From a virus: 45,396 bases of DNA. Location of the stretch: IMG/VR virus record IMGVR_UViG_3300005096_000082, positions 1 to 45,396 of that record. One strand, given 5' to 3'. Every line of letters starts with the position of its first letter. Positions within the stretch are counted from its first letter, which is position 1. Shown here in pieces: positions 957 through 40,878 of this stretch. Under the pieces are notes generated by a model. That model was not told where the DNA came from. It saw only the letters and a program-made list of their open reading frames with translations, and ran no database searches. The position numbers were made by a program, and so were the translations under genes.

Positions 957-3401
957 ATGGCGACTATCCAAGATCAGATAGCGTGGGAAGACACGATGAT
1001 AGACCGGGGCGTCACGCGCTTCCGGGTCCAGCAGGACAAAGCTACCGATAGCCGTGCTCATGAAACCAGCGCAGGTAGTCGCCTGCTTCGTTCCTACGTC
1101 CTGCAAGTCTCAGACCAGATCACGATGTACCTCAACCGCGAGCACCCTGCACGTAAATGGAAGCGCATGAGCCCCGCAGCAAAGCTGCTCAAGGCCGTAG
1201 ACGCAGACAAGGTTGCAATGTTCGCGTTGAGAGAAGTGATCGGCTCCCTGTTTTCACCTACTGGATCGACCATCCAATCAATCTGTGTCAACATCGGCAT
1301 GAGTTGTGAGGACGAGCTTCGGTTCAGCAAGTTCCAGACGGATTACAAGGAATATTACGATGCCCTCATACGTGATTTCGAAAGAAAGCGCACAACGAGC
1401 TATTCGCATAAACGACGGGTTCTGTCAGACCGGGGAAAATCTCAGGGACTGGAATGGCAGACGTGGACACGAGACGACTGCTTTTCTGTTGGCGCTCTTG
1501 TGCTATCCCTGCTTATGGAGGTCTGCGATCTCGTTGAGAAGGTCAAAGTCCAGCGCAAAGGACGTGGCCACAACGTCGCTCTGAAGGCCACTCAGGAGTG
1601 CTTGGACTGGATTGGTGACCATAACACCGTGATGGAGCTTACAAGCCCTGACAGGATGCCCTGTGTCGTCCCACCGGCTGATTGGATATCCCCCATTGAC
1701 GGCGGATACTACTCGCCGAGATTACGTGCAAGAACACCTCTTGTGAAGAGCCGACAAAAGGACGCCGAGCGAGAGCAGCTTTTCAAAGACGCTGTCATGC
1801 CGGTGGTTTACAAGAGCATCAATCAGGCGCAGAGAACACCTTGGCGCGTGAACAAGATGATCCTGATGATCATGCAGGCTGTTTGGGAACGAAACCTAGA
1901 GTGTGGCATGCCGCGTCTCGATCCATATGAGATACCGACATGTCCTCTGTCCTCGGACGTAAACGTAGGAGACCTTGAAAATGGATGCCCAGAACACGTC
2001 GCTTTCAACGAATGGAAAGCCGCCGCCCGAGAACTCTACACAATGGAGAAAGAGCGGGTCGCCAAGAACTTGGCCTTGGTTCGAACTCTGCGTCTCGCAC
2101 GGGAACTTGAAGAGCATTCATCCATCTGGTTCGTCTATCAAGTGGACTTCCGTGGACGGATGTACAGCGCCACCAGTGGTCTATCCCCGCAAGGCACTGA
2201 CCAGTCAAAGGCTCTACTTGAATTCTCTACAGGAAGTCCTCTTGAAAACGATGAGGGCGTCTACTGGTTCATTGCCAATGGTGCAGCGAAATTCGGCTTC
2301 GACAAAGTATCGTTCGACGACCGGGTACGGTATATGCTTGGGCGGTCGCGGGAGTGGAAAGAGATCGCTGATAACCCAATTGGTAACCGGGGCTGGGCTG
2401 AAGCAGATAAGCCTTTCCAATTCCTCGCATGGTGCTTCGAGTTCTCAGAATGGAGCAAGCTATCTGATCATGGACGAGGCCACGAGTATCGTTCCCACCT
2501 ACCCGTGGGCATGGACGGAAGCTGTAACGGACTTCAGCACTTTTCCGCAATGCTGCGTGACCCGATTGGGGGTGCTGCTGTCAACCTCACGCCCAGTGAC
2601 AAACCCGCCGACATCTATCAAACTGTCGCAGATGTCACCTACGCAAAGGTTAGACAACTTGCTGTTCAAGGCGATGGCGCAGCGAATAATTGGATCAAAC
2701 AACTCGGGAAGTCGATGTCTCGGAAGCTCACGAAGCATCCGGTAATGACACTGCCCTACGGCAGCACACCGCAAGCCTGTACCGGAGAGATATTCAAGTG
2801 GGTAACAGAGAATGCATCGTTCCCAAAGAACACCGCGTTCCGACACAGCCTGTGGCTAACTCCGCTGCTATGGGACAGCATAGGTGAAACTGTACTGGCT
2901 GCCAGAGCGGCCATGACGTGGCTTCAGAACAGCAGCGCAGATATCACCGATGCAGAACTTCCTCTCAGCTATAGGACGCCTCTTGGTTTCCCTGTGCATC
3001 AGAGTACGAGGAAGATGGTCCTGCGAGAGATCGAGACCCAGATCGGTGGAAGGCTTCGTTTGAAGCTGGCCACGGACACAAAAGAGTTCGACAAGCGCAA
3101 GCAACGTCAGGGCTCTGCACCCAACTTTGTCCACAGCATTGACGCCACGCACTTGTACATGGCGATTGATAAAATGGGCGACACAGATTACGCCATGATC
3201 CACGACGACTTTGGTGTACCAGCAAACCGCGTTGCCGAGTTCCGGCGCGTAATTCAGGAGACCTTCTATGACCTTCATTCGAACAATGATCTTCTTGCTG
3301 CTTTTCAAGATGAGCATCCTGACGTATCCCTTCCGCCTATGCCAGATCGGGGTGATCTCGATTTATCGGGCGTTTTATCCAGCCCCTACTTCTTCGGTTG
3401 A
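957..3401 (+). CDS. T7-like single-subunit DNA-directed RNA polymerase
   Basis: An 814-residue protein that should transcribe phage middle and late genes from phage-specific promoters. Motif A is DGSCNGLQHFSAML (about residue 520), holding the first catalytic Asp. Motif B is RKLTKHPVMTLPYG (about 588-601), with the Lys and Tyr of the fingers helix. Motif C is HDDFG (about 749), the second catalytic Asp; T7 has HDSFG. Length is near T7 gp1 (883 aa), with a shorter N-terminal region. The gene sits after the DNA-metabolism genes and directly before the structural genes, as in phiKMV-like phages and unlike T7. The start at 957 follows a GAGGAAT stretch. Confidence 0.97.
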   Translation: MATIQDQIAWEDTMIDRGVTRFRVQQDKATDSRAHETSAGSRLLRSYVLQVSDQITMYLNREHPARKWKRMSPAAKLLKAVDADKVAMFALREVIGSLFSPTGSTIQSICVNIGMSCEDELRFSKFQTDYKEYYDALIRDFERKRTTSYSHKRRVLSDRGKSQGLEWQTWTRDDCFSVGALVLSLLMEVCDLVEKVKVQRKGRGHNVALKATQECLDWIGDHNTVMELTSPDRMPCVVPPADWISPIDGGYYSPRLRARTPLVKSRQKDAEREQLFKDAVMPVVYKSINQAQRTPWRVNKMILMIMQAVWERNLECGMPRLDPYEIPTCPLSSDVNVGDLENGCPEHVAFNEWKAAARELYTMEKERVAKNLALVRTLRLARELEEHSSIWFVYQVDFRGRMYSATSGLSPQGTDQSKALLEFSTGSPLENDEGVYWFIANGAAKFGFDKVSFDDRVRYMLGRSREWKEIADNPIGNRGWAEADKPFQFLAWCFEFSEWSKLSDHGRGHEYRSHLPVGMDGSCNGLQHFSAMLRDPIGGAAVNLTPSDKPADIYQTVADVTYAKVRQLAVQGDGAANNWIKQLGKSMSRKLTKHPVMTLPYGSTPQACTGEIFKWVTENASFPKNTAFRHSLWLTPLLWDSIGETVLAARAAMTWLQNSSADITDAELPLSYRTPLGFPVHQSTRKMVLREIETQIGGRLRLKLATDTKEFDKRKQRQGSAPNFVHSIDATHLYMAIDKMGDTDYAMIHDDFGVPANRVAEFRRVIQETFYDLHSNNDLLAAFQDEHPDVSLPPMPDRGDLDLSGVLSSPYFFG

Positions 3402-20143: not shown

Positions 20144-20462
20144 CACGGACAAGATGAACGTACTGCACGACAAGCTTGCTGACATCTTCACGCGCGTCCT
20201 CAAGAACTATGAGAGCAAGCTGAACTTTGCAGAGGACTTGGACCCAGAGGTTTTGACTGAGGAACTGCTGACCGCGCTGGGCACGGAGCCTAGCCCGGCT
20301 ATGCTTTCCACGATTGCCAAATTCTTGAAGGACAACGAGATATCCTACGATGATGGTGCAGTCGAAGATTTGTCTGCCGTTCAAGAGCAACTTGCCAACC
20401 GGCAGAAGGATCGCGGTAAGCTGGCTACTCTGACAACCTTGCGCGCTGTTGAAAATGGTTAA
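20124..20462 (+). CDS. Terminase small subunit
   Basis: A 112-residue protein from ATG 20124, overlapping the end of the small membrane gene by 20 nt, with GGAG upstream. Helical and acidic; the segment ALGTEPSPAMLSTIAKFLKDNEISYD is like the DNA-recognition small terminase of T7-type phages (gp18, 89 aa). It would recognise concatemer ends and activate the large subunit. Its stop overlaps the large subunit start. Confidence 0.85.
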   Translation: MSQKAANTDKMNVLHDKLADIFTRVLKNYESKLNFAEDLDPEVLTEELLTALGTEPSPAMLSTIAKFLKDNEISYDDGAVEDLSAVQEQLANRQKDRGKLATLTTLRAVENG

Positions 20463-22236
20463 GCCCATCAACATGACGGTCAAGGAACGCTGGGATGCGC
20501 TGCGACAGGTACAAGATGCCTATCCGCATTTCCCTGAGTTCCTTTACGACATCGTGACCGGCCTTATGGGGTTCGAGTGCACACGCAATCAACTTGATAT
20601 GGCCCTGTACTTGGAGAGCGGGCCGCTGTTTCGAATGATCCAAGCTCAACGTGGTCAGGCGAAGACGACCGTTACGGCAGCCTATGCTGTTTGGCGTCAA
20701 ATTCATAACCCCTCGACAAGGGTGCTGATCATATCATCCGGCGACACTATGGCGCAGGAGATCAGCAACTGGGTGATCCAGATACTCACCGGAATGCCGG
20801 AGCTTGAGTGCATGCTGCCCGACCGCTCACGCGGTGACAGAGCCTCTGTCGAGAAATACGACATCCACCGGGACCTCAAAGGTCCAGAGAAGTCGCCGTC
20901 TATCGCGTGTGTTGGGATCACTTCCAACTTGCAGGGTAAGCGGGCCGACGTGCTCATTGCTGATGATATCGAGAGTGCCAAGAATTCGGCAACCGATGTC
21001 CAGCGTGAACGCATTGCTCACTTGAGCCGCGACTTCACATCCATCTGTACCAAGGGAGACATCATCTACCTTGGGACACCACAATCTATCGACAGTATCT
21101 ACAATGGCCTTCCGGGCCGTGGATTTACAATCCGCATATGGCCGGGCCGGTTCCCCACCGAGAAAGAGCTTGAGAATTACGGAGCATGGCTTGCACCGTC
21201 GATCCTTCAAGCGATCCTCGCCGACCCATCTTTGCAGACGGGCGGTGGGCTTCTTGGAAACAGGGGCAAGCCTACGGACGACGTGATCCTGCCAGAGGAC
21301 ATTCTCACAGCTAAAGAGATTGACCAAGGGGCCGCGTACTTCCAGCTTCAACACATGCTCGATACACGTCTTGCGGACAGTGAGCGCTACCCTCTAAAGG
21401 TAGAGAAACTGATCTTCACTTCGTTGTTGGGCAATTCCGCACCGATGGCATTCCAACGCTCGGCCACAGAGGCCAGCAGGATACGCATGCCATCCGACTT
21501 CCCGGTCACCGCCAAATTCTATATGGCGACGCATGACCACTCCGAGTTCGGCGCTTACGAAGGAACACACATGTACGTGGACCCCGCAGGCGGTGGGCAG
21601 AACGGAGACGAGACGGCATACGCAGTATCTCAGATGCTCGCGGGTAAAGTCTACATCAGGGCAGTTGGCGGGGTGAAGGGCGGCTTGGACGAACCACAGA
21701 TGGACGAACTCACAGAGGTCGCCGAAAAGTGGAAGCCCAACGTGATCCATGTCGAAGAAAACTACGGCAAGGGTGCCCTATCGCACACTTGGCAACCAAG
21801 GCTGAGAAAGAAGCACGTATGCGAAGTTGTTGACGTCTGGGAGACCGGGCAGAAAGAGCTACGCATCATTGACACCCTAGAGCCGTTAATCGGTGCAGGG
21901 AAGCTCGTGTTCGACGAAGAACTCATCATGTTCGACTGGCAATCTGTTCGGAAGTATCCGACTGAGAAGCAATCGAGCTTTATGCTGTTCCACCAGATTT
22001 CGCGTATCACGCGGGATAAGGGTGCGCTGTTCCATGAAGATAGACTTGATGCACTCGCAGGCACATGCCGCTATTGGCTTGAGAACCTCGCAGTCGATGA
22101 AAAGGATGCTGCTATCGCTGCGCAACGCTTGCGCTACAAGCAGATGATGTCCGACCCGCTCGGCAATGGAAGACCCATCAAATCGCTCGACCCCGCTCAC
22201 AACGCGCGGTTGGGTAAACTCAAACGAAGATTTTAA
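20455..22236 (+). CDS. Terminase large subunit (DNA packaging ATPase/nuclease)
   Basis: A 593-residue protein (T7 gp19 is 586 aa). ATG 20455 is preferred over the in-frame TTG at 20449. Walker A-like RGQAKTT (about residue 66), Walker B VLIADDIE (about 165) and the nuclease-domain motif YVDPAGGGQNGDETAYA (about 373-389) are visible. It packages DNA through the portal and cuts concatemers. T7-type packaging with terminal repeats is expected, which argues that the real genome ends lie elsewhere than this contig's joint. Confidence 0.95.
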   Translation: MVKPINMTVKERWDALRQVQDAYPHFPEFLYDIVTGLMGFECTRNQLDMALYLESGPLFRMIQAQRGQAKTTVTAAYAVWRQIHNPSTRVLIISSGDTMAQEISNWVIQILTGMPELECMLPDRSRGDRASVEKYDIHRDLKGPEKSPSIACVGITSNLQGKRADVLIADDIESAKNSATDVQRERIAHLSRDFTSICTKGDIIYLGTPQSIDSIYNGLPGRGFTIRIWPGRFPTEKELENYGAWLAPSILQAILADPSLQTGGGLLGNRGKPTDDVILPEDILTAKEIDQGAAYFQLQHMLDTRLADSERYPLKVEKLIFTSLLGNSAPMAFQRSATEASRIRMPSDFPVTAKFYMATHDHSEFGAYEGTHMYVDPAGGGQNGDETAYAVSQMLAGKVYIRAVGGVKGGLDEPQMDELTEVAEKWKPNVIHVEENYGKGALSHTWQPRLRKKHVCEVVDVWETGQKELRIIDTLEPLIGAGKLVFDEELIMFDWQSVRKYPTEKQSSFMLFHQISRITRDKGALFHEDRLDALAGTCRYWLENLAVDEKDAAIAAQRLRYKQMMSDPLGNGRPIKSLDPAHNARLGKLKRRF

Positions 22237-25252: not shown

Positions 25253-25322
25253 CTACCTGTATTCATAAAATCACTCAAGCGCCGCCCAGCGAGCGCGTTG
25301 GTGGTACAAATCGGAGAATATA

Positions 25323-25424
25323 ATGATTTCATCTATCCTGACAGGCGTAGCCGTCATTGCTGGCGTATTTGTCGTCGGCTTAATCGTATTTATTGTCATT
25401 CTTGCGAATGGCATGGGCCGATGA
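25323..25424 (+). CDS. Tiny single-span membrane protein (33 aa)
   Basis: ATG 25323 after CGGAGAATATA. Almost the whole peptide is one hydrophobic helix (ILTGVAVIAGVFVVGLIVFI), ending NGMGR. Its TGA overlaps the ATG of the Tad2-like gene by 4 nt, so the two are likely co-translated. Role unknown; a lysis accessory or membrane modulator is possible. Confidence 0.6.
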   Translation: MISSILTGVAVIAGVFVVGLIVFIVILANGMGR

Positions 25425-25684
25425 ACTTCTCACGAGCTTTAGAAAGCATTAAATCCGGCAGCCGTCTTGCACGAGGCGGTTGGCATGGAAAAGACATGTT
25501 CGTATTTCATGTCAACGGAAGCACGTTCACAGTGAACCGCGAACCACTCGTTTCAATACTTGGTGAAGGCACTGTGGTGAACTACCATCCACACATCGAC
25601 ATCAAACAACCGGATGGCTACATCTCGACTTGGGTGCCTTCCACTGGCGATCTATTCGCAGAAGATTGGGTTGTAGTACAGTAA
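25421..25684 (+). CDS. DUF2829 / Tad2-like protein, candidate anti-Thoeris sponge
   Basis: An 87-residue protein from ATG 25421 (4-nt overlap with the tiny membrane gene). It follows the DUF2829 pattern: N-terminal MNFSRALESIKSGSRLARGGWHG (F-x-x-A-L-x-x-x-K-x-G-x-x-x-A-R-x-G-W-x-G), a middle with several hydrophobic strands, and the end WVPSTGDLFAEDWVVV (W-x-P-S-x-x-D-L-x-A-x-D-W). Tad2 proteins of this family form tetramers that sequester cyclic ADP-ribose-type signals and so block Thoeris, and in some cases other nucleotide signals. Whether this copy binds a signal cannot be told from sequence. Last gene of the late region. Confidence 0.85.
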   Translation: MNFSRALESIKSGSRLARGGWHGKDMFVFHVNGSTFTVNREPLVSILGEGTVVNYHPHIDIKQPDGYISTWVPSTGDLFAEDWVVVQ

Positions 25685-25840
25685 GAGACTGATTGTCTCA
25701 CCCAGAGGCCATATGCGGCCCGTACAGCGCCTTCAGCATCGCTAGGCTATGTCTGGACCTAGAAAGTCCTCATCGCCGCCAGTGAAGCTGTTTGGTGCGC
25801 AGTTGCGGTCAATACCGCGTATGGCACTTATTATGATACG

Positions 25841-25870
25841 ACCGGCACCTCTGCTTCGGTATGTGCCGGT
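25841..25870 (+). other. Perfect 8-bp hairpin in the intergenic region
   Basis: ACCGGCAC (25841-25848) and GTGCCGGT (25863-25870) are exact complements around a 14-base loop that contains CTTCGG. It lies downstream of the last late gene and could slow late transcripts, though only TCT follows. Confidence 0.5.
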
Positions 25871-25961: not shown

Positions 25962-26034
25962 CGCGCTATGGTGTAAAGCTAGCACACCTGATTTGGTTCA
26001 GGAGGACGTGGTTCAATACCATGTGGCGCGACCA
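25962..26034 (+). tRNA. tRNA, probably Pro (UGG), with irregular anticodon loop
   Basis: Acceptor CGCGCTA (25962-25968) pairs with TGGCGCG (26024-26030), one G-U; then A73 and encoded CCA (26032-26034). T arm is CGTGG-TTCAATA-CCATG. D arm is GTGT-AAAGCTA-GCAC, lacking the usual GG. Anticodon stem CCTGA/TCAGG leaves a 6-base loop TTTGGT instead of 7. Reading TGG gives proline, supported by C1-G72 and A73, which are proline identity features in bacteria. The short loop and missing G37 and D-loop GG make function doubtful. It may be a degenerate or specialised tRNA. Confidence 0.65.
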
Positions 26035-26310
26035 ATAAGTGGATCGTAATTTTTGTGATAGATTTTTGCGAGCGGGTATCTAGTATTCCACACGCGCACA
26101 TTCCCCCGTGCGCCCGCCCGTCTTTTCAATTAATCGCGCCTGCGCCTTTTCATTCGTATGGCATAGGGGGGTGGGTCACAGCTTCAGCGTTTGGCTTGCC
26201 TATACACATTTGAATTTGTGAATGCATAGGGCATGGCTGTACAGGGTGCAGGGTGCATGGGCTCAAGGTGTATGTTCGAAACAGGTTCTAGCTTTGTAAG
26301 GCCAAGGGCA

Positions 26311-26345
26311 CCTATCTTCTTTCCACATGCTTCCTATCTTCTTTC
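26311..26345. repeat. Direct repeat CCTATCTTCTTTC (two copies)
   Basis: Thirteen identical bases at 26311-26323 and 26333-26345, 22 bases apart, about one helical turn times two. A degenerate copy (CCTATCTTATTT) lies at 26670 within the spacer of the sigma70-like promoter. Spaced pyrimidine-rich repeats beside an AT-rich block may be protein-binding sites. Confidence 0.5.
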
Positions 26346-26419
26346 AATATGTCCTGATCAGTATGTTTGTACCTATTTGAGTAGCTTGTAAGTAATTGTT
26401 TTATATATGCTTTTAATGG

Positions 26420-26443
26420 CCCCGCTCTATAGAGTATAAATAA
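26420..26443 (+). promoter_or_regulatory. Variant phage promoter P5 in the gene-poor region
   Basis: CCCCGCTCTATAGAGTATA shares CCCCGC and TATAG with the four other promoter motifs, differing by two bases in the core. CTCTATAGAG within it is a 10-bp palindrome. No gene starts nearby, so a transcript from here would run through AT-rich DNA, as at T7 primary origin promoters. Confidence 0.5.
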
Positions 26444-26660
26444 GATCATATGATCATTTTGAATATATGGTAGGTAATTGGAATATAAGAGCTTATGGAA
26501 TGAGCCCTAAAGGCGAATGAAATAAGGGATTATATGAGAATTACCATGAGTAGTATAGGACAGCTATAGGTGATCTTTATAAGCCGGATAGTGTATCTGG
26601 TGCAGATAGTTTATCAATGAAAACAGGCGCTTGTAAAATAAATGCATGATTGTGCAAATT
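26431..26660. other. AT-rich block, candidate primary replication origin
   Basis: About 230 bases clearly richer in A/T than the rest of the window, directly downstream of phage-like promoter P5. It contains the 12-bp palindrome GATCATATGATC (26444-26455). In T7 the primary origin is a phage promoter followed by an AT-rich segment in the early part of the genome, where the RNA primes leading-strand synthesis. The resemblance in layout is the only evidence. Confidence 0.4.
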
Positions 26661-26665
26661 AGCTG

Positions 26666-26695
26666 TTGACCTATCTTATTTACTCAGCGTATAAG
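26666..26695 (+). promoter_or_regulatory. Sigma70-like early promoter
   Basis: TTGACC (26666-26671), 18-base spacer, TATAAG (26690-26695): five of six matches at each box. Transcription would start near 26702 and read the structured leader region and the early genes. It takes the role of the A1-A3 host promoters of T7. Best host-type promoter seen in the window. Confidence 0.7.
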
Positions 26696-26701
26696 GGTGC
26701 A

Positions 26702-27340
26702 TCGAAAGGCCAGACGGGCTGGACGGGAAGACAAGCCCTGATGAACTGGCGCAAGCCCTTCAGATGGCGGCAGGCCGGTGGCGAGTAAGACCGGGCGAAA
26801 CCAGCAGCGTGATGGCTGGCACATATGGCGAATACTAGGCACAGACGGTAAGCGGGAATATGAGCCGGGGTAACCCACACACTCGCAAACAGGTCGAACC
26901 GCTCTTTTCACTCACTGGCGAGTATAGCCAGCGATAGCCGCAAGGCCAGCAATAGCTGCAAGTCACACTGAACCGCAAGGGCGGTGTGAACCAAGCGACA
27001 CTCCGTCGAACCAGCAAGAACCCTCATAGAATACTATCCAGCAATGAGCACATTTGCGCCTAACGCTGTCGATAAAGAAGATCGGCAGTAGTGGCCGCGT
27101 TGATGTGTGGCACGTGGTGCGAACCACTTAAACCACTTCAAACAACTGATCCAGCTTAGCACTTAGGGCAATGGCGGGTGTGGCAAGCTACTGCGTGACG
27201 GTTTGGATAGGCAAGAGATTGCAAAAGGGTCAGCCGCCTGTAGCAAAGACAGGCTGACTTGATTTGCAATTTAGACAACCGCAGCGGTGCACATGGCAGC
27301 TTAAAGTGGCCTAGGACCCACGCCGCTGCACGAATTCAGA
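26702..27340 (+). ncRNA. Candidate large structured RNA or long structured early leader
   Basis: About 640 bases without a credible gene, starting just after the sigma70-like promoter and ending at the ribosome-binding site of the first early gene. Helices visible: GGGCT/AGCCC (26716-26738), GGC-GCAA-GCC (26748-26757), CCGGT/ACCGG (26775-26794), CCAGC/GCTGG (26801-26819), ACCGC-AAGG-GCGGT inside TCAC/GTGA (26963-26989), GTGGT-GCGA-ACCAC (27114-27127), a long stacked hairpin ATTGCAAA/TTTGCAAT with inner GTCAG/CTGAC and CCTGT/ACAGG (27218-27270), and GCAGCGG/CCGCTGC (27281-27329). GNRA-type loops occur twice. A tandem 18-mer lies at 26927-26962. Large ornate phage RNAs (GOLLD, ROOL) occur in such places, but family membership is not shown. 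Confidence 0.5.
26927..26962. repeat. Tandem 18-base repeat inside the structured region
   Basis: Copy 1 GCCAGCGATAGCCGCAAG (26927-26944) and copy 2 GCCAGCAATAGCTGCAAG (26945-26962) differ at two positions. Each copy contains AGC/GC-AAG elements able to pair with neighbouring GGC/GCT segments, so duplication of one RNA stem is a likely origin. Confidence 0.7.
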
Positions 27341-27349
27341 GGGATGAAT

Positions 27350-27487
27350 ATGTTCAAAATTCAGAAATACAACAGCAGCCAACTGGGCTGGGTTGACACG
27401 GGCTGGGATAACCTGAGCCTGCAAGAATGCTACGCCAAACAGAATGGCGTTTTGCGCATGCATTGGACTAGACTTGTTCGCATGTAA
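27350..27487 (+). CDS. First early small protein (45 aa)
   Basis: ATG 27350 fits the AGAGGG site (27338-27343) better than the in-frame ATG 27344, which is too close. Protein MFKIQKYNSSQLGWVDTGWDNLSL is basic and aromatic. No family recognised. First coding sequence after the structured leader, thus very early; such genes in T7-like phages often modify host machinery. Confidence 0.6.
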   Translation: MFKIQKYNSSQLGWVDTGWDNLSLQECYAKQNGVLRMHWTRLVRM

Positions 27488-28015: not shown

Positions 28016-28621
28016 ATGACCATGACTAAGGCAAAATCCACAGACAAGGCCGACAACAAAGCGCCTATCAAGGCGACGCGCATTGTCGAAGGTGCCGACG
28101 CCATTATCAAGCTGGGCACCGGCATCCAAACCCGGTCACGCAAGGTTGACGCTGATACGCAAGTTTGGGCTGTTTCAGCCGTTGCACATGTGAACACGCA
28201 TGGCGATATCCGGCCTATTACAGCGATGTTTGACGGCAAGCTGGGCACCGGCCTGCGCCAGAACGCATTGCGGGAATTCATTGAGACATTCGCCAAAGTG
28301 ACATATTCAGAAAAGGGCAAGTGTTTTGTTTATGACAAAACCGCTGACGGCGACACTGAGGCCGCGCAGGTCAACCTGTGGACTGATTTCAAGCCAGAAC
28401 CACCTTACCAAGCCATGAACGAATTGGCCATGCTACAGCAATTGCTCAAGCGCATGAACAAAGCGGACGCGGCAAAAGGCGACGTGGTGTCACCGGCGAC
28501 CGTCAACGCGGTTGCAGGGCTGATTGCGGCCTTGGATGGGTCAGAGGTCCAGAATGGTGTTGAAGGCGCTACAGCGGACGCTCAGGAAGCCTCAGACGTA
28601 CCTGAGACACTGGAAGCGTGA
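28016..28621 (+). CDS. Early protein of unknown function (201 aa)
   Basis: ATG 28016 follows TTTCAGGAGAAC, a strong site. The body (residues about 22-120) is mixed alpha/beta (ATRIVEGADAIIKLGTG, TQVWAVSAVAHVNTHGDIRPI). The C-terminal third is Ala/Glu-rich and probably disordered (EVQNGVEGATADAQEASDVP). No recognised family. It is one of the longer early genes and well translated by its site; the next gene begins in its stop (GTGA). Confidence 0.65.
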   Translation: MTMTKAKSTDKADNKAPIKATRIVEGADAIIKLGTGIQTRSRKVDADTQVWAVSAVAHVNTHGDIRPITAMFDGKLGTGLRQNALREFIETFAKVTYSEKGKCFVYDKTADGDTEAAQVNLWTDFKPEPPYQAMNELAMLQQLLKRMNKADAAKGDVVSPATVNAVAGLIAALDGSEVQNGVEGATADAQEASDVPETLEA

Positions 28622-34065: not shown

Positions 34066-34462
34066 TGATTGCATTGTAAAGGGTAGCACGTATGGAAATC
34101 ACAGAAAGGCGTGGTGCGATGCGAATGGTGTAGACATTAACACTCTTCGATCAGATCAGCACATAATGCATAGCTGTGACAATCCGCCCTGTATCAATCC
34201 AGATCATCTTTCGCTAGGTTCGCATCTGGACAACATGGCGGACATGCGAGCAAAGGGGCGATCCTTCAAGGGCATTGGACAGACAAGTCATAATGCAAGA
34301 CTGACAGACGCAGACGTTCACAGTATAAAGGACGCACTGCGCGACCCGTATCGTGGAATTGTGACTGCACTGGCAAAGAAATTTGGAGTGCGTCAACAGA
34401 CCATCAGCGCAATACGTTCAGGAGACAACTGGGCGCACATAAAGGAGACGCTATCGTGTTAG
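34058..34462 (+). CDS. HNH homing-type endonuclease
   Basis: A 134-residue protein. HNH core is IMHSCDNPPCINPDHLSLGSHLDNMADMRAKGR (given in parts: IMHSCDNPPC, then INPDHLSLGS), with the metal-binding His and Asn. The C-terminal part ALAKKFGVRQQTISAIRSGDNW is a helix-turn-helix typical of these enzymes' DNA-binding ends. Free-standing, inserted between primase and helicase, overlapping both by 7-8 nt. Likely a mobile endonuclease that cuts the homologous locus of related phages. Confidence 0.9.
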   Translation: MLDDCIVKGSTYGNHRKAWCDANGVDINTLRSDQHIMHSCDNPPCINPDHLSLGSHLDNMADMRAKGRSFKGIGQTSHNARLTDADVHSIKDALRDPYRGIVTALAKKFGVRQQTISAIRSGDNWAHIKETLSC

Positions 34463-35739
34463 ACATGGTGCTGTTACGCATCCTCAAAAACAGGAAGGAA
34501 TTCTTCCAGATACATGACCGCATTCCGAAGGAAGCTTTGGACAAGACAACGGTTATGATCATCGAAGACTTCGCCGCCTATTTTGAGAAGTTGCCTGATG
34601 CAACGAAGATCGACGTGCAATACTTTTTGCCGTTCTTTCGTTCCCGACGAGGCAAGGATATGTCCGAAGAGGGCATCATCGAATACGAGAGGATTTTACC
34701 TAAGCTCAGAACCAATGTGCCAGAGGATGAGCGAAAGGCCATCATGGTTCAGATGCTGGAACTGCGCTTGAGCACAGACATGGCTGAGACGCTGTCCAAG
34801 TACGAGGCGGGCGACATCCCAAACCTTCACGCGGAGCTAACCCGGATCGAAAACGAGTTCGCAGTTGATGCTGAGATCAAGGTAACGGATTTCATCAAGA
34901 CACCCATCGAAGAACTTATGCTTGAAGAGGGTAACGAAGACGGAATAAAATCCCGGCTCACTGTGCTCAAGGAAGCAATGCGCGGATATCGTGGCGGAGA
35001 CTTCGTGATCATCGCTGCCCGGCCAGACCGAGGCAAGGGCACGTTCATCGCATCCGAAACGACCTACTTCGCGCCGCAACTGCCTGACGACCAGAACATC
35101 CTGATCCTTAACAACGAGGGACCGGGCAAGCGCGTAGTCCCACGGCTCTATCAGGCGGCTCTAGGAGCGCCCTTGAGTGTCATGCGGGAGTACATGGACG
35201 ACAAGTCGCTCAGACGCCGTTATATCGAGGCTGTGGGCCGCGTAGACCGCATCAGAGTGGTGGACATACACGGATTTGACACATACGCCGTCGAGAACAT
35301 CGTTCGGCAGAACAATGCCGGTGTTGTGGTCTACGATATGATCGACCACATTCGTGGATTTCGCAATGAAGCCCGCACCGATCTGGTGCTGGAAGAAATG
35401 TACAAATGGGCACGGACGTTGGCTGTGAAATACAACCATGTCGGCATGGCCACAAGCCAGATCAGCAATGAGGGCGACGGCATGTTGTTCCCAACGCTGG
35501 GGATGCTCAAAGACAGCAAGACCGGAAAGCAAGGTGCCTGTGATGCGATGATCATGATCGGGAACAGCAATGATCCCGGCATGCAATCTATCCGAGGCAT
35601 TGGTCTACCCAAGAACAAGCTGCGCCGAGAAGGTTTTCCCGGCGACCCACGTGCTCAGGTTACATTCAAGCCGGGCATTGCGCGCTTCGAGGATATGGCC
35701 GTTGGCCTTCCGGGCGATGAAGAAGAGGACGAGACATGA
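34456..35739 (+). CDS. Replicative DNA helicase (DnaB/T7 gp4 helicase-type)
   Basis: A 427-residue protein from GTG 34456. RecA-fold core: Walker A-like ARPDRGKGTF (about residues 188-197), Walker B GVVVYDMID (about 288-296), and GMATSQIS (about 331-338), the H4/sensor Q region. The P-loop has GKG-T in place of GKT/S. The N-terminal 150 residues are helical, likely the hexamerisation/primase-contact part. It would unwind DNA at the fork together with the separate primase. Overlaps HNH gene and next gene by 7 and 4 nt. Confidence 0.88.
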   Translation: MLDMVLLRILKNRKEFFQIHDRIPKEALDKTTVMIIEDFAAYFEKLPDATKIDVQYFLPFFRSRRGKDMSEEGIIEYERILPKLRTNVPEDERKAIMVQMLELRLSTDMAETLSKYEAGDIPNLHAELTRIENEFAVDAEIKVTDFIKTPIEELMLEEGNEDGIKSRLTVLKEAMRGYRGGDFVIIAARPDRGKGTFIASETTYFAPQLPDDQNILILNNEGPGKRVVPRLYQAALGAPLSVMREYMDDKSLRRRYIEAVGRVDRIRVVDIHGFDTYAVENIVRQNNAGVVVYDMIDHIRGFRNEARTDLVLEEMYKWARTLAVKYNHVGMATSQISNEGDGMLFPTLGMLKDSKTGKQGACDAMIMIGNSNDPGMQSIRGIGLPKNKLRREGFPGDPRAQVTFKPGIARFEDMAVGLPGDEEEDET

Positions 35740-37442
35740 GTTTTATTTTTAACGTCGGTGTAGCAGAGGATTGGCTTCGTGAAAATCCTGATGTAGGTCT
35801 GGAACAGTTTCTGGAATATCACAAGTCTAAGAAACCAGATTTGTGGGCAGCACACCCCGCCCGTTTGAAACTTCGGGCGACATCCCTGTACACACGTGCA
35901 GCAGAAAACATCACCATCGCCGTGCGAGACGATCTGGTACTGAATGAACTGGACGACGATGGCCCAGACGTTGTTCCCGGTGGCGTTGTTTACAGCGCAG
36001 AGAAAGACCGAGAGACACTGAAACCGGGCCGGTACGTTTTCACCAGCGCACAATCCAACACGAAGGTGCACCCGGTCCTCGCATCGCTGCAGCACTATTG
36101 CGACAAGAACGACGCCAAGATGCACATCGCCACGTTCACCTACAATAAGACTGGACACAGCGAGCATTCTGTGAAGCTAGGCAGCAAGAAGGTGTCAGAC
36201 AATCAGGACGTGTGGTTCGACCAGCCGGTCATTGAGTTCATAAGTGATATTTCCCTGCAGGTTGCCCCGGATTTGGTATTCTGCGGAGAGTTGAACATCC
36301 TGCCAACGCGGATCAATCCGCTGAGCAGCTTCAGCACCTACACCCGTCAGAATTCTGCGATCATCCCGCATGCAAAGCTGGCGATGCAGTCTATCCCAAC
36401 CATGAAGAATGAGCCGCCGCGCTTCCTGTACAGCACAGGATCATGCACGTTGCGAAATTACATCCAGAAAACCGCTGGACAGGTGGCAGATTTCCACCAC
36501 GTCTTTGGTGCTCTGGTTGTCGAGGTCGCGGAAAACGGTACATGGTGGGCACGTCAATTGAACGCCGACGACGACGGCACGTTCTACGACCTGAACTGGA
36601 AGTACACCCCGGATGGTGCATTCATGCACAACGAGACAAACCTCGCCATCAATCACGGCGACATCCACTGGAACAAGCGCGATCCGCATATCATGGGCGT
36701 CATGTTTGGACCGGGCGGTATTTTGGATAAGCTCGCACCAGAGTATCAGTTCTTCCACGACATCGTGGATTTTCAGGCGCGTAATCACCACAACATACAA
36801 GACCCACACTTCATTCACCAGATGCTTGTTGAGGGCACAGATAGTGTGCAGAAAGAGTTCTGCGAAGCTGGGGAGTTCCTGCTGACAAACGGGTATCGTT
36901 CGTGGTGCAAAACCTTTGTCGTTGAAAGCAATCACGACATGGCGATTGACATCTGGCTGCGGAATATTGTTGGTGCATCTGATCCAGCAAATGCCCGCAT
37001 CTGGCACGAGTGGAACGCACAAGCCTACCGGGTTCGGGAAGCTGGAGAAAAGCCTCGACCATTCAAATCGGCGATTGAAGAAGGTATGATGCATTTTCAA
37101 TCTCGGGCAGGATTTTTCCACGGCACAGCGGGATATGACGTTCGCTTCCTGCACGAGGACGACAGCCTGTGGCTCAAGAGCATCCAGTTTGGCCTGCATG
37201 GCCATTTGGGTCCAAACGGAGCCCGTGGAGCGCCAAAGAACCTGCGCAGCGTAGGCAAGGCCAACACAGGGCACACACACAGCGCAGGGATCGTTGACGG
37301 CGTCTACACAGCCGGTCTGTTCGGTCTCATGGACCAAGGATACAACAAGGGCCTGTCAGGCTGGTCAGCGAGCTTCATTCTGACGTATCCGAATGGCAAG
37401 CGCACAATCATCACAATCAAGGACGGAAAGGGCTGGTTATGA
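35736..37442 (+). CDS. Calcineurin-like metallophosphoesterase, possibly T5 A1-like
   Basis: A 568-residue protein. The C-terminal half has the ordered metal motifs: NHGDIHWNKRD (about 306), FHDIVDF (about 341), ESNHD (about 400), GLHGH (about 487) and GHTHS (about 513). The N-terminal half (RFLYSTGSCTLRNYIQKTAG and others) is not a standard phosphatase part. The whole resembles proteins annotated as phage A1-type DNA transfer/host takeover proteins, recalled from memory and unverified. It sits in the replication operon with 4-nt overlaps on both sides. A nuclease or nucleotidase role is likely. Confidence 0.7.
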   Translation: MSFIFNVGVAEDWLRENPDVGLEQFLEYHKSKKPDLWAAHPARLKLRATSLYTRAAENITIAVRDDLVLNELDDDGPDVVPGGVVYSAEKDRETLKPGRYVFTSAQSNTKVHPVLASLQHYCDKNDAKMHIATFTYNKTGHSEHSVKLGSKKVSDNQDVWFDQPVIEFISDISLQVAPDLVFCGELNILPTRINPLSSFSTYTRQNSAIIPHAKLAMQSIPTMKNEPPRFLYSTGSCTLRNYIQKTAGQVADFHHVFGALVVEVAENGTWWARQLNADDDGTFYDLNWKYTPDGAFMHNETNLAINHGDIHWNKRDPHIMGVMFGPGGILDKLAPEYQFFHDIVDFQARNHHNIQDPHFIHQMLVEGTDSVQKEFCEAGEFLLTNGYRSWCKTFVVESNHDMAIDIWLRNIVGASDPANARIWHEWNAQAYRVREAGEKPRPFKSAIEEGMMHFQSRAGFFHGTAGYDVRFLHEDDSLWLKSIQFGLHGHLGPNGARGAPKNLRSVGKANTGHTHSAGIVDGVYTAGLFGLMDQGYNKGLSGWSASFILTYPNGKRTIITIKDGKGWL

Positions 37443-38495: not shown

Positions 38496-38590
38496 CTTTT
38501 TACAACAAACACCTACGTCGGTGGGAAGTATCTGTTAATGGTACAGTAATACGAGTAACGGCGCTGTTTCCTTGGAGGTATCCTGCATGA
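38492..38590 (+). CDS. Mini-protein (32 aa) coupling into DNA polymerase
   Basis: ATG 38492 to TGA 38588-38590, overlapping the DNA polymerase ATG by 4 nt. Basic beta-like peptide (YNKHLRRWEVSVNGTVIRV). It also spans the GGAGG site of the polymerase, so it may serve mainly to couple translation. Confidence 0.45.
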   Translation: MTFYNKHLRRWEVSVNGTVIRVTALFPWRYPA

Positions 38591-40878
38591 AATGGCAAGT
38601 CTTTGATAGCGAGACCCAGATCAACAAGGCATGGGGCCGCACAGCGAACCCTTGGCATCCCGACAACTACGTTGTTGCGCGGGGCTGGCAAGTCGAGGGC
38701 GAAAAGGTAGGATGGAAGTTCTACGAAAAGGGTGACGCGAAGAACTGGCTGCACATACCTGACGACGTAACAGTGCTGGCCGGTCACAACATCAAGTTCG
38801 ACATCCTGTACGAACTAGCTCAAGGTAACGAGGCGATCTATTGCTTCTTTGCCCGTGGCGGGAAGATTTGGGACACACAGCTTGCGGAGTATCTTCTGCA
38901 AGGCATGACCCGAAAATTCCACATGAACAGCATGGATCAGATCATCGAAAGCTACGGCGGTCGCAAGAAGATCGACGGCATGAAAGAGCTTTGGGAAGCC
39001 GGTGTGCAGACATCTGACATCGACCCGGCGATGGTCACGGACTATCTGGTTGGAACTGAGGAAGAGGACCGCGACAGCGGCGACATCGGCAACACCCGGA
39101 TTATATTCCTCGGACAGCTTGTTGCTGCAGCCGCGCTGGGTATGACCAAGATGATCGAAGTTCGCATGGACAGCCTGTGCGCCACGATCCTCATGGAGTA
39201 CAACGGCATCCACGTTGACATTGAGATCGCCAAGAAAGACCTGATCAGGCTGAACGGGGAATTCGCAACTGCGAAGACAGAGCTTGGGAAATACACAAGC
39301 CACATCCCAGAAGAGGTCGGCTTCAATTGGGGAAGTGGGACGCACAAGTCCTGCATCATCTACGGCGGCGTGATCAAGTACAGCAAGCAGACCACGTACA
39401 TCGACGAGAAGACCGGCGTGAACGCACGTCTGGTCACAACAGAGCGCTGGCCACTGTTTGGCAAAGAGCCTATGGACCCGTCCGAATGTGAAATTGATCC
39501 TGACTTTGGTGACGACCGTTATCTGTACGGTGGGCAGCCGCAGGACATATTTGTCGGAGGCAAAAAGAAGGGCGAAGCCAAGTTCAAGAACATGCCCGGC
39601 TGGGGAGAAGAGAAGGTTAAATTCCAAGATCATTTCTTCCGACTTGAGGGATACTGTGACGGCGACAAGCTTGAGATCGACCGCACGAAGACGAAAGACG
39701 GGGATGGAGAATTCCTGTTCGTTACAGACAGCGACACGATGGAAAACTTGGGCAACTTGGACATCCCATTCCTGAAAGCACTGGGTCGGCATACCAGCCT
39801 GTCCAAAGAGATCGGGACGTACTATTTCATCATCAAGCCGAATGGTGATCACAAGGGAATGTTGACCTGTGTTGTTCCCGGTGTCTGCATAATCCACCAC
39901 GCCTTGAACCACACGAGCACGGTGACAAGCCGATTAAGCTCAAGCACACCAAACTGTCAGAATATCCCACGGGGTGACAAGAGCCGGGTTAAGGCGATGT
40001 TCACCAGCCGGTTTGGGCCTGACGGTTGGATGGCCGAGATCGACTACAGCCAGCTTGAAGTTGTGGTCATGGGCTTGCTCAGCATGGACAAGCAACTGAT
40101 CAAGGATTTGCTCAGCAAGGTTGACTTCCACTGCGTCCGAGTAGCCGCCCGTGAGGGGTGCACCTACGAAGAGGCTTTGGAATGGTGCAAGAACGAAGAC
40201 CACCCGAAGAACAAGGTCTGGAAAGTCTACCGGACGGAGTGCAAAATCTTCTCGTTCCAGCGGGCATACGGAGCCGGGGCATCGACTATCGCTCTGACAG
40301 CCAACATGACCGTGGACCTCGTGAAAGAGATGATAATTTTGGAGGACAAAAAGTATCCCGGCGTGGTGAAGTTCCACGAGGGCGTTGAGAAAGAGATCAA
40401 CGCAGGTGCAGAGCCCTTCAGAGACCCTGAGCGGGGCTACAGGCCCTTTCGTCGGGGTACTTGGCAGGCACCCACCGGAACCATGTACTCTTGGCGCTCT
40501 TGGGACGCTCCTGCGTTCCTACGCAAGAAGGGGATCATGGACACATTCAGCCCACCCGAGATCAAGAATTACCCGACGCAGGGTACTGGCGGAGAAGTCG
40601 TCCAGATGATCCTCGGAAAGCTGTTCCGCTTCTGGGCCATGAACAACTGGTTCGAAGGTGATGCATTGCTCGTCAACACAGTGCATGACTGTATCTGGTT
40701 CGACTTTAAGAACCGGGAGATCGCCGACCGGCTGCTTCCTCAGATCAAGACCATCATGGAAGCAATACCGTATTTCCTGAAGAAAGATTTTGACTGGGAC
40801 TGCCCTGTGCCGTTTCCTGTTGATGTCGAAATCGGGAAAGACATGCTGGATATGAAACACTGGGAGAAACTGACATGA
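38587..40878 (+). CDS. DNA polymerase, family A (PolA/T7 gp5-type)
   Basis: A 763-residue replicative polymerase from ATG 38587 behind GGAGG. Proofreading exonuclease: Exo I VFDSETQ (Asp7, Glu9), Exo II GHNIKFDIL (about 65-73), and a less standard Exo III around YLVGTEEEDRDSGD. Polymerase: motif A DYSQLEVV (about 485), motif B RTECKIFSFQRAYGAG (about 547-562), motif C VHDCIW (about 699). An insertion at about 270-390 separates exonuclease and polymerase domains. Neighbours are nucleotide-pool enzymes on both sides. T7 gp5 is 704 aa. Confidence 0.96.
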   Translation: MKWQVFDSETQINKAWGRTANPWHPDNYVVARGWQVEGEKVGWKFYEKGDAKNWLHIPDDVTVLAGHNIKFDILYELAQGNEAIYCFFARGGKIWDTQLAEYLLQGMTRKFHMNSMDQIIESYGGRKKIDGMKELWEAGVQTSDIDPAMVTDYLVGTEEEDRDSGDIGNTRIIFLGQLVAAAALGMTKMIEVRMDSLCATILMEYNGIHVDIEIAKKDLIRLNGEFATAKTELGKYTSHIPEEVGFNWGSGTHKSCIIYGGVIKYSKQTTYIDEKTGVNARLVTTERWPLFGKEPMDPSECEIDPDFGDDRYLYGGQPQDIFVGGKKKGEAKFKNMPGWGEEKVKFQDHFFRLEGYCDGDKLEIDRTKTKDGDGEFLFVTDSDTMENLGNLDIPFLKALGRHTSLSKEIGTYYFIIKPNGDHKGMLTCVVPGVCIIHHALNHTSTVTSRLSSSTPNCQNIPRGDKSRVKAMFTSRFGPDGWMAEIDYSQLEVVVMGLLSMDKQLIKDLLSKVDFHCVRVAAREGCTYEEALEWCKNEDHPKNKVWKVYRTECKIFSFQRAYGAGASTIALTANMTVDLVKEMIILEDKKYPGVVKFHEGVEKEINAGAEPFRDPERGYRPFRRGTWQAPTGTMYSWRSWDAPAFLRKKGIMDTFSPPEIKNYPTQGTGGEVVQMILGKLFRFWAMNNWFEGDALLVNTVHDCIWFDFKNREIADRLLPQIKTIMEAIPYFLKKDFDWDCPVPFPVDVEIGKDMLDMKHWEKLT

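Follow-up and report, generated by a model that had tools for sequence, protein, structure and literature searches.

Genome and gene map

The record IMGVR_UViG_3300005096_000082 of IMG/VR consists of 45,396 bp of virus DNA, and its whole length is referred to below as the window. Because a 29-mer at bases 32-60 recurs at the start of the last 60 bases, so that the contig ends overlap, the record was read as a circularised map. Protein searches returned a T7-like set that includes the portal, and the phage is accordingly a T7-like, Autographiviridae-like one. The features needed for orientation are as follows:

957-3401: RNA polymerase, about 19.6 kb downstream of the leader, across the circle
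20449-22236: terminase
25962-26034: tRNA (cmscan, 46.7 bits)
26079-26110, + strand: inferred physical left end (start of the terminal repeat), TCTAGTATTCCACACGCGCACATTCCCCC, from homology to Palo and Paso
26300-26660, + strand: AT-rich promoter-proximal block, about 34-37% GC in the composition profile, same layout in relatives
26666-26695, + strand: sigma70-type early promoter, TTGACC-N18-TATAAG, recognised by the promoter plus ATCGRAA pattern
26701-26707, + strand: 5′ motif ATCGAAA, predicted transcription start, conserved in relatives
26701-27336, + strand: predicted large structured noncoding leader RNA (from position, lack of genes, 5′ motif and GNRA hairpins)
27344-27487, + strand: first early open reading frame (ORF), 47 aa long from a start at 27344 or 27350, without a family match
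28022-28621, + strand: early gene of family phrog_1448, function unknown, a synteny anchor near the leader in most relatives
34456-35739: DnaB-like helicase
38572-40878: DNA polymerase

By protein comparison the nearest named phages are the Paracoccus phages ParKuw1 and ParMal1 together with MedPE-SWcel-C56 (Kafavirus), followed by Autographiviridae of Rhizobium and Agrobacterium. The window also codes for a T5 A1-like DNA transfer protein (35736-37442; phrog_1745, E 7e-166) within this T7-like phage, as has been reported for Palo and Paso too.

The physical end of the virion DNA was located by comparison with Palo and Paso, for which terminal repeats of 260 and 371 bp, respectively, were predicted with PhageTerm (PMC7844081, PMC7862964). 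Both genomes start with TCTAATAC...TTTCCCCC. The context of window position 26,079 matches that of position 1 in Palo (TCTAATACCAACCGCGCGCAGATTTCCCCC) and in Paso, and TTTTGCGAGCGGGTA precedes 26,079 in the window as it does in many relatives; the virion DNA is thus taken to have its left end at 26,079. On this placement some 620 bp would separate the leader from the left end, which enters first, and the tRNA at 25,962-26,034 would belong to the other end of the linear virion DNA. The tRNA that had been described as lying 0.7 kb upstream of the stretch is therefore upstream only in the circular contig, and an argument for a GOLLD or ROOL RNA from proximity to a tRNA fails, since the tRNA lies across the inferred terminus.

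Several further observations were made around this terminus. The tRNA directly precedes it; ARAGORN assigned no anticodon, and the anticodon loop looks one base long. The right end of the linear genome carries a gene (25298-25684) with a Tad2-like domain, of a family that counters Thoeris defence (Pfam PF11195, E 2.1e-21). Between this gene and the tRNA, the gene-free segment 25680-25960 folds strongly in parts (on the + strand, z about -3 to -4) and contains a GC-rich hairpin, ACCGGCAC..GTGCCGGT, near 25839-25870, possibly a late terminator. Upstream of the early promoter, the AT-rich segment 26440-26559 contains the palindrome AAGATCATATGATC and is much more stable than its shuffles whichever strand is folded (z -4.6 and -4.3); it is possibly a regulatory site.

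Borders of the gene-free stretch

The absence of a credible gene from 26,702-27,340, as first proposed, was borne out. The longest + strand ORF starting before 27,259 has 40 aa, and the minus-strand ORFs of the stretch (54-75 aa) had no relatives among the compared relatives' loci, so a protein frame through the region was rejected. The borders named in the original prediction also stood. The stretch begins right after the promoter at 26,666-26,695, which a strict promoter scan misses although it is conserved in relatives, and it ends at the first early gene (start at 27,344 or 27,350). No TTGACA occurs within the window's leader, and no terminator was found between the leader and the first early gene. 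Three small ORFs separate the leader from the phrog_1448 gene. Within the stretch the following elements were annotated, all on the + strand:

26900-26907: BoxA-like element CGCTCTTT, a match to YGCTCTTW
26927-26962: tandem imperfect 18-mer repeat, copies at 26,927 and 26,945, 16/18 identical
26963-26989: hairpin TCACACTG..CGGTGTGA (stretch 26,890-27,000, z -2.26)
27065-27127: hairpin cluster, 27065-27089, 27094-27111 and 27114-27127 (z -2.07)
27201-27212: GGAUA-loop hairpin GTTTGGATAGGC, weak and G-U rich, its loop common to 11 other leaders
27216-27272: long terminal hairpin, -26.2 kcal/mol (z -3.11, 0/200 shuffles as good)
27281-27329: last hairpin GCAGCGGTG..CGCCGCTGC, directly before the ribosome-binding site (z -1.58)

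Folding of the window's own copy

Taken as a whole, the 639 nt are no more stable than dinucleotide shuffles (z -0.24 and -0.58), which holds for either strand, and among 19 leaders compared by z against shuffles the window's is the least stable. Folding in 120-nt windows gave an unstable 5′ third and moderately stable 3′ two thirds; the first roughly 180 nt are less stable than shuffles. The window sequence alone is consequently insufficient to prove an RNA. The original observation is in this respect confirmed in part: individual hairpins are present, but the stability of the whole is unremarkable.

The best of these hairpins, the large stacked one at 27,216-27,272, proved real in the shuffle test (z -3.1, 0/200 shuffles as good), for which the stretch had been picked by eye beforehand; it is a possible RNase III-type cleavage site. 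The leader has 2 GNRA hairpins where shuffles have 0.26 (p 0.03), and its minus strand has 0. Of the two, that at 27114-27127 has the form GTGGT-GCGA-ACCAC, and that at 27,211-27,222 competes with the large hairpin. The duplicated 18-mer likewise exists as a tandem repeat, but an imperfect one.

Leaders of related phages

About 30 related phages (from Paracoccus, Rhizobium and Agrobacterium and from marine sources) have a gene-free stretch of 0.4-1.3 kb at the matching place. In ParMal1, ParKuw1, MedPE-SWcel-C56, Palo, Paso, RHEph02, I38, N37 and RHEph15, 1.1-1.9 kb around the left end are without annotated genes, and the authors of the Paso genome described its first 1.5 kb as apparently without genes. 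IMG/VR relatives, located through helicase and terminase alignments, are gene-free there as well; single-protein IMG/VR searches with the terminase or the phrog_1448 gene had returned zero relatives, whereas the alignment queries succeeded. The common layout begins with the terminus and continues with an AT-rich block, the promoter, an AUCGAAA-type start, the gene-free leader and the first early gene. A phrog_1448 homologue (25-38% identity) follows the leader in most relatives; its protein could be a partner of the leader RNA. Helicase relatives were also found in three bacterial contigs, apparently prophages (L240, L241 and L242; Bradyrhizobium, Pannonibacter), in which no long gene-free leader was detected within 10 kb upstream of the helicase.

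The promoter followed by ATCGRAA was matched 13 times on the + strand and 0 times on the minus strand in 2.2 Mb of the window and its relatives, and all 13 matches are leader starts, from six lineages, the window included. A further 63 IMG/VR contigs (L176-L238) matching the promoter plus CATCGAAAG were dismissed as chance, none having a homologue of a tested window protein.

The BoxA-like pattern YGCTCTTW occurs 8 times in 26.8 kb of leaders and 23 times in 627 kb elsewhere (0.298 vs 0.037 per kb, Poisson P 9e-6), and 0 times on the leaders' minus strand. These sites fall in 8 of about 40 leaders, and the pattern was examined late, as one among several.

Hairpins with a GGAUA loop number 12 on the + strand of the leaders, against 2.0 ± 1.4 in shuffles. 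Their stems vary freely over the 12 leaders (for instance L020:2317, L040:3694, L132:15366, L064:2973 and window 27205). As proof this hairpin was dropped, the window's copy being G-U rich and one copy occurring on the minus strand too.

TTGACA is enriched in the relatives' leaders (24 on + vs 3 on -), for example at L108:13773, L015:1255 and 1519, L064:2541 and 2677, L048:648 and L100:10280. In several of these leaders a TAnnnT-like hexamer follows 17-18 nt after TTGACA, and some hexamers are able to pair with the nucleotides that come next after TTGACA (ACCTTG/CAAGGT, AAGCTA/TAGCTT, ACTCTG/CAGAGT), as if internal promoter and RNA hairpin were one element.

Conservation of structure in the relatives

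Compensatory pairs were counted in alignments of leaders and compared with counts from re-folded column-shuffled alignments. The Cuernavacavirus leaders gave 43 against 14.7 ± 3.0 (max 21), the RHEph15 group 40 against 16.7 ± 3.1 (max 24) and the Paracoccus group 38 against 18.2 ± 3.6 (max 27); coding controls from the same phages showed no clear excess (14 vs 10.2, 23 vs 18.2 and 13 vs 13.5). For six Cuernavacavirus leaders with a mean identity of 82%, RNAalifold predicted 167 pairs, 36 of them changed on both sides, and at one place the stems GGTGCAGG..CCTGCATC, AATACACG..CGTGTATT and ATACATGTG..CATGTGTAT replace one another. The covariation expected of related podoviruses was hence found in three lineages (38-43 pairs vs 15-18) but not in L039, L056 and L071, where the consensus energy lay below that of shuffles and yet no significant excess of compensatory pairs was seen. 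Consensus-energy z was not used alone because it is not specific: the Cuernavacavirus coding control also scored low (z -9.1) without a compensatory excess.

The 29 leaders examined for GNRA hairpins have together 35 of them in sense orientation and 2 on the antisense strand, compared with 6.5 ± 2.5 (max 14) in shuffles, and the sense strand folds better than the antisense strand. Compensatory pairs, sense-strand GNRA excess and better sense folding, taken together, show by comparative sequence analysis that the relatives carry a structured RNA on the strand predicted to be transcribed, and not a DNA element.

Assignment of the window's copy

The window was searched with cmscan against 4,227 Rfam families. 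None of them matched at the gathering threshold, and a cut-off of E ≤ 1 brought up the tRNA alone, besides a mascRNA match on it that was put down to chance. An Rfam search of the relatives gave no match either. Membership of GOLLD, ROOL, OLE or HEARO is not supported on this basis, no covariance model of these RNAs matching the window or its relatives; an Infernal search of this kind had been proposed as a check.

Direct comparison with other leaders was equally sparing. BLASTN of the window's leader against 50,697 phage records gave chance matches only, and local alignment to 28 other leaders reached at best z 3.0 (L030), too weak for a claim of homology. The covariance model R1, built on a Paracoccus leader domain, found nothing above chance in the window's leader, a weak test since R1 also misses other divergent lineages. 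The window's copy does share the other traits of the proposed class: the gene-free place upstream of phrog_1448, the promoter plus ATCGRAA and the GNRA excess. Compensatory pairs were found in three other lineages; for the window's copy, the collections searched yielded no homologue that could be aligned and so used to count them. As no close homologue turned up, conservation of its structure is deduced from position and 5′ motif.

The proposal of a structured phage RNA is thus supported in part: about 30 relatives are gene-free at the matching place, three lineages show compensatory pairs, GNRA hairpins are strand-specific and promoter and 5′ motif are conserved, but the window's copy is not confidently alignable. 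That a class of structured leader RNAs exists is regarded as highly probable. Judged from place and motif, membership of the window's copy in it is likely but not proven, and the stretch probably belongs to a new class of large, structured leader RNAs of early transcripts in alphaproteobacterial Autographiviridae. "A new class", as originally suggested, is the best, if provisional, reading of the stretch.

Proposed mechanism and rival explanations

In the favoured scheme, host RNA polymerase would start at about 26,701, some 620 bp from the entering left end, and would first make a noncoding structured RNA of about 640 nt before reading through into the early genes. The leader RNA would act mainly in cis, as an untranslated leader that makes the host polymerase resistant to termination; the BoxA-like element and the packed hairpins would confer this resistance, and transcription would thereby cross the approximately 19.6 kb to the phage RNA polymerase gene. 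The leader RNA would also protect the 5′ end of the message, and the hairpins at 27,216-27,329 may be where the leader is cut off. Host polymerase must travel far in this genome, since the phage RNA polymerase gene lies so far downstream. A cis role is favoured because the leader stands 5′ of the early operon, no terminator was found, the polymerase gene is distant and BoxA-like sites are enriched. This mechanism of termination resistance and message protection is nevertheless put forward tentatively, at somewhat below an even chance; the explanation as a whole, in which the 5′ part of the early transcript is the class's leader RNA and acts mainly in cis, falls just short of an even chance. 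The broader statement, that an undescribed class of large early RNA serves either polymerase termination resistance or as a free ornate RNA, the window being a highly diverged member, is considered rather probable.

The main rival is a free ornate RNA, which would be released by an RNase at the 3′ hairpins, accumulate and act in trans, binding a host factor (polymerase, ribosome, nuclease or defence component) or forming RNA-only particles as GOLLD and ROOL do. The size of 640 nt, rising to about 1.3 kb in relatives, the many GNRA hairpins, a structure kept while the sequence turns over fast and the stable terminal hairpin before the first gene are all in keeping with it, as are the precedents of the approximately 800 nt ICP1 transcript and of the GOLLD and ROOL cages (PMC7567579, PMC12286853). 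Against it, the leader invariably opens the early operon on the same strand, with no terminator found after it, and it has no Rfam match; a role in trans, with whichever of these partners, is rated as rather unlikely.

Two further readings dispense with a selected RNA in the window. The stretch might be a plain untranslated leader of the early transcript that holds a promoter as well as sites for packaging and RNase III, its structure no longer selected and the class confined to the relatives. Whole-stretch stability (z -0.24 to -0.58, the weakest of 19 leaders), a first 180 nt no better than shuffles and the lack of an alignable homologue all fit this reading. The conserved promoter and 5′ motif, the GNRA excess (p 0.03), the stable 3′ hairpins, a place and size that match the structured relatives and the retention of 640 nt of gene-free DNA in a compact genome speak against it, and we consider it improbable. 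A DNA element, whether a replication origin, a packaging signal near the terminus or T7-like tandem promoters, would suit the nearness of the inferred genome end and the TTGACA enrichment in the relatives' leaders (24 + vs 3 -). It would account neither for a GNRA excess and better folding confined to the sense strand nor for compensatory changes in the relatives, and the packaging-junction sequence that is shared is found some 600 bp upstream of the stretch; tandem promoters were rejected for the window, which has no internal TTGACA. This last reading is held to be very improbable.

If the preferred reading of a cis-acting antiterminator holds, it would account for the passage of host polymerase to a phage polymerase gene about 20 kb away, a gene order unlike that of T7. 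The function of the leader is testable: it keeps a fixed position in lytic phages that can be cultured, those of Rhizobium, Bradyrhizobium, Agrobacterium and Paracoccus, it is expected to be transcribed before any other RNA once the DNA has entered, and its 5′ end is predictable.

Comparison with known systems

In T7, promoters A1-A3 precede gene 0.3 at the left end. The arrangement is like that of the leader described here, which also lies at the left end, behind a predicted host-polymerase promoter and before the first early gene; we know of no large structured noncoding RNA in the early leader region of T7.

In HK022 put, lambda nut and the rrn leaders, the 5′ RNA of an early or rRNA transcript prevents the host polymerase from terminating. 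The leader would act alike at the 5′ end of the early transcript, and the BoxA element expected of a Nus/BoxA-dependent antitermination leader is present in the window as CGCTCTTT at 26900. It differs from put and nut in being far longer, in that no BoxB/N pair was identified and in that BoxA occurs in a minority of leaders.

To our knowledge, large structured phage RNAs are few (GOLLD, ROOL and the ICP1 transcript), and no function is known for any of them. No description of such a leader RNA in these phages was found in the literature searched, subscription papers being outside its scope. GOLLD is phage-borne, often over 800 nt long and rich in helices, its function being unknown, and both GOLLD and ROOL assemble RNA-only cages (PMC12286853). 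The leader resembles GOLLD as a large phage-borne RNA for which many helices are predicted; GOLLD, however, occurs in phages and prophages, often near tRNA islands, whereas the leader lies at the genome end and opens the early operon. ROOL is likewise a large phage RNA of similar size (659 nt in one example, PMC12286853), but its model does not match the leader and the gene context differs. In phage ICP1, a noncoding RNA of about 800 nt is the most abundant transcript (PMC7567579). It shares with the leader, whose transcription is predicted, the character of a large gene-free transcribed stretch in a lytic phage; its position, in an unrelated phage, is between gp140 and gp139, the gene with which the lysis cluster begins, and it was compared by description only. 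Large structured phage RNAs are thus a known kind, of which the leader would be a new class in a new genomic setting.
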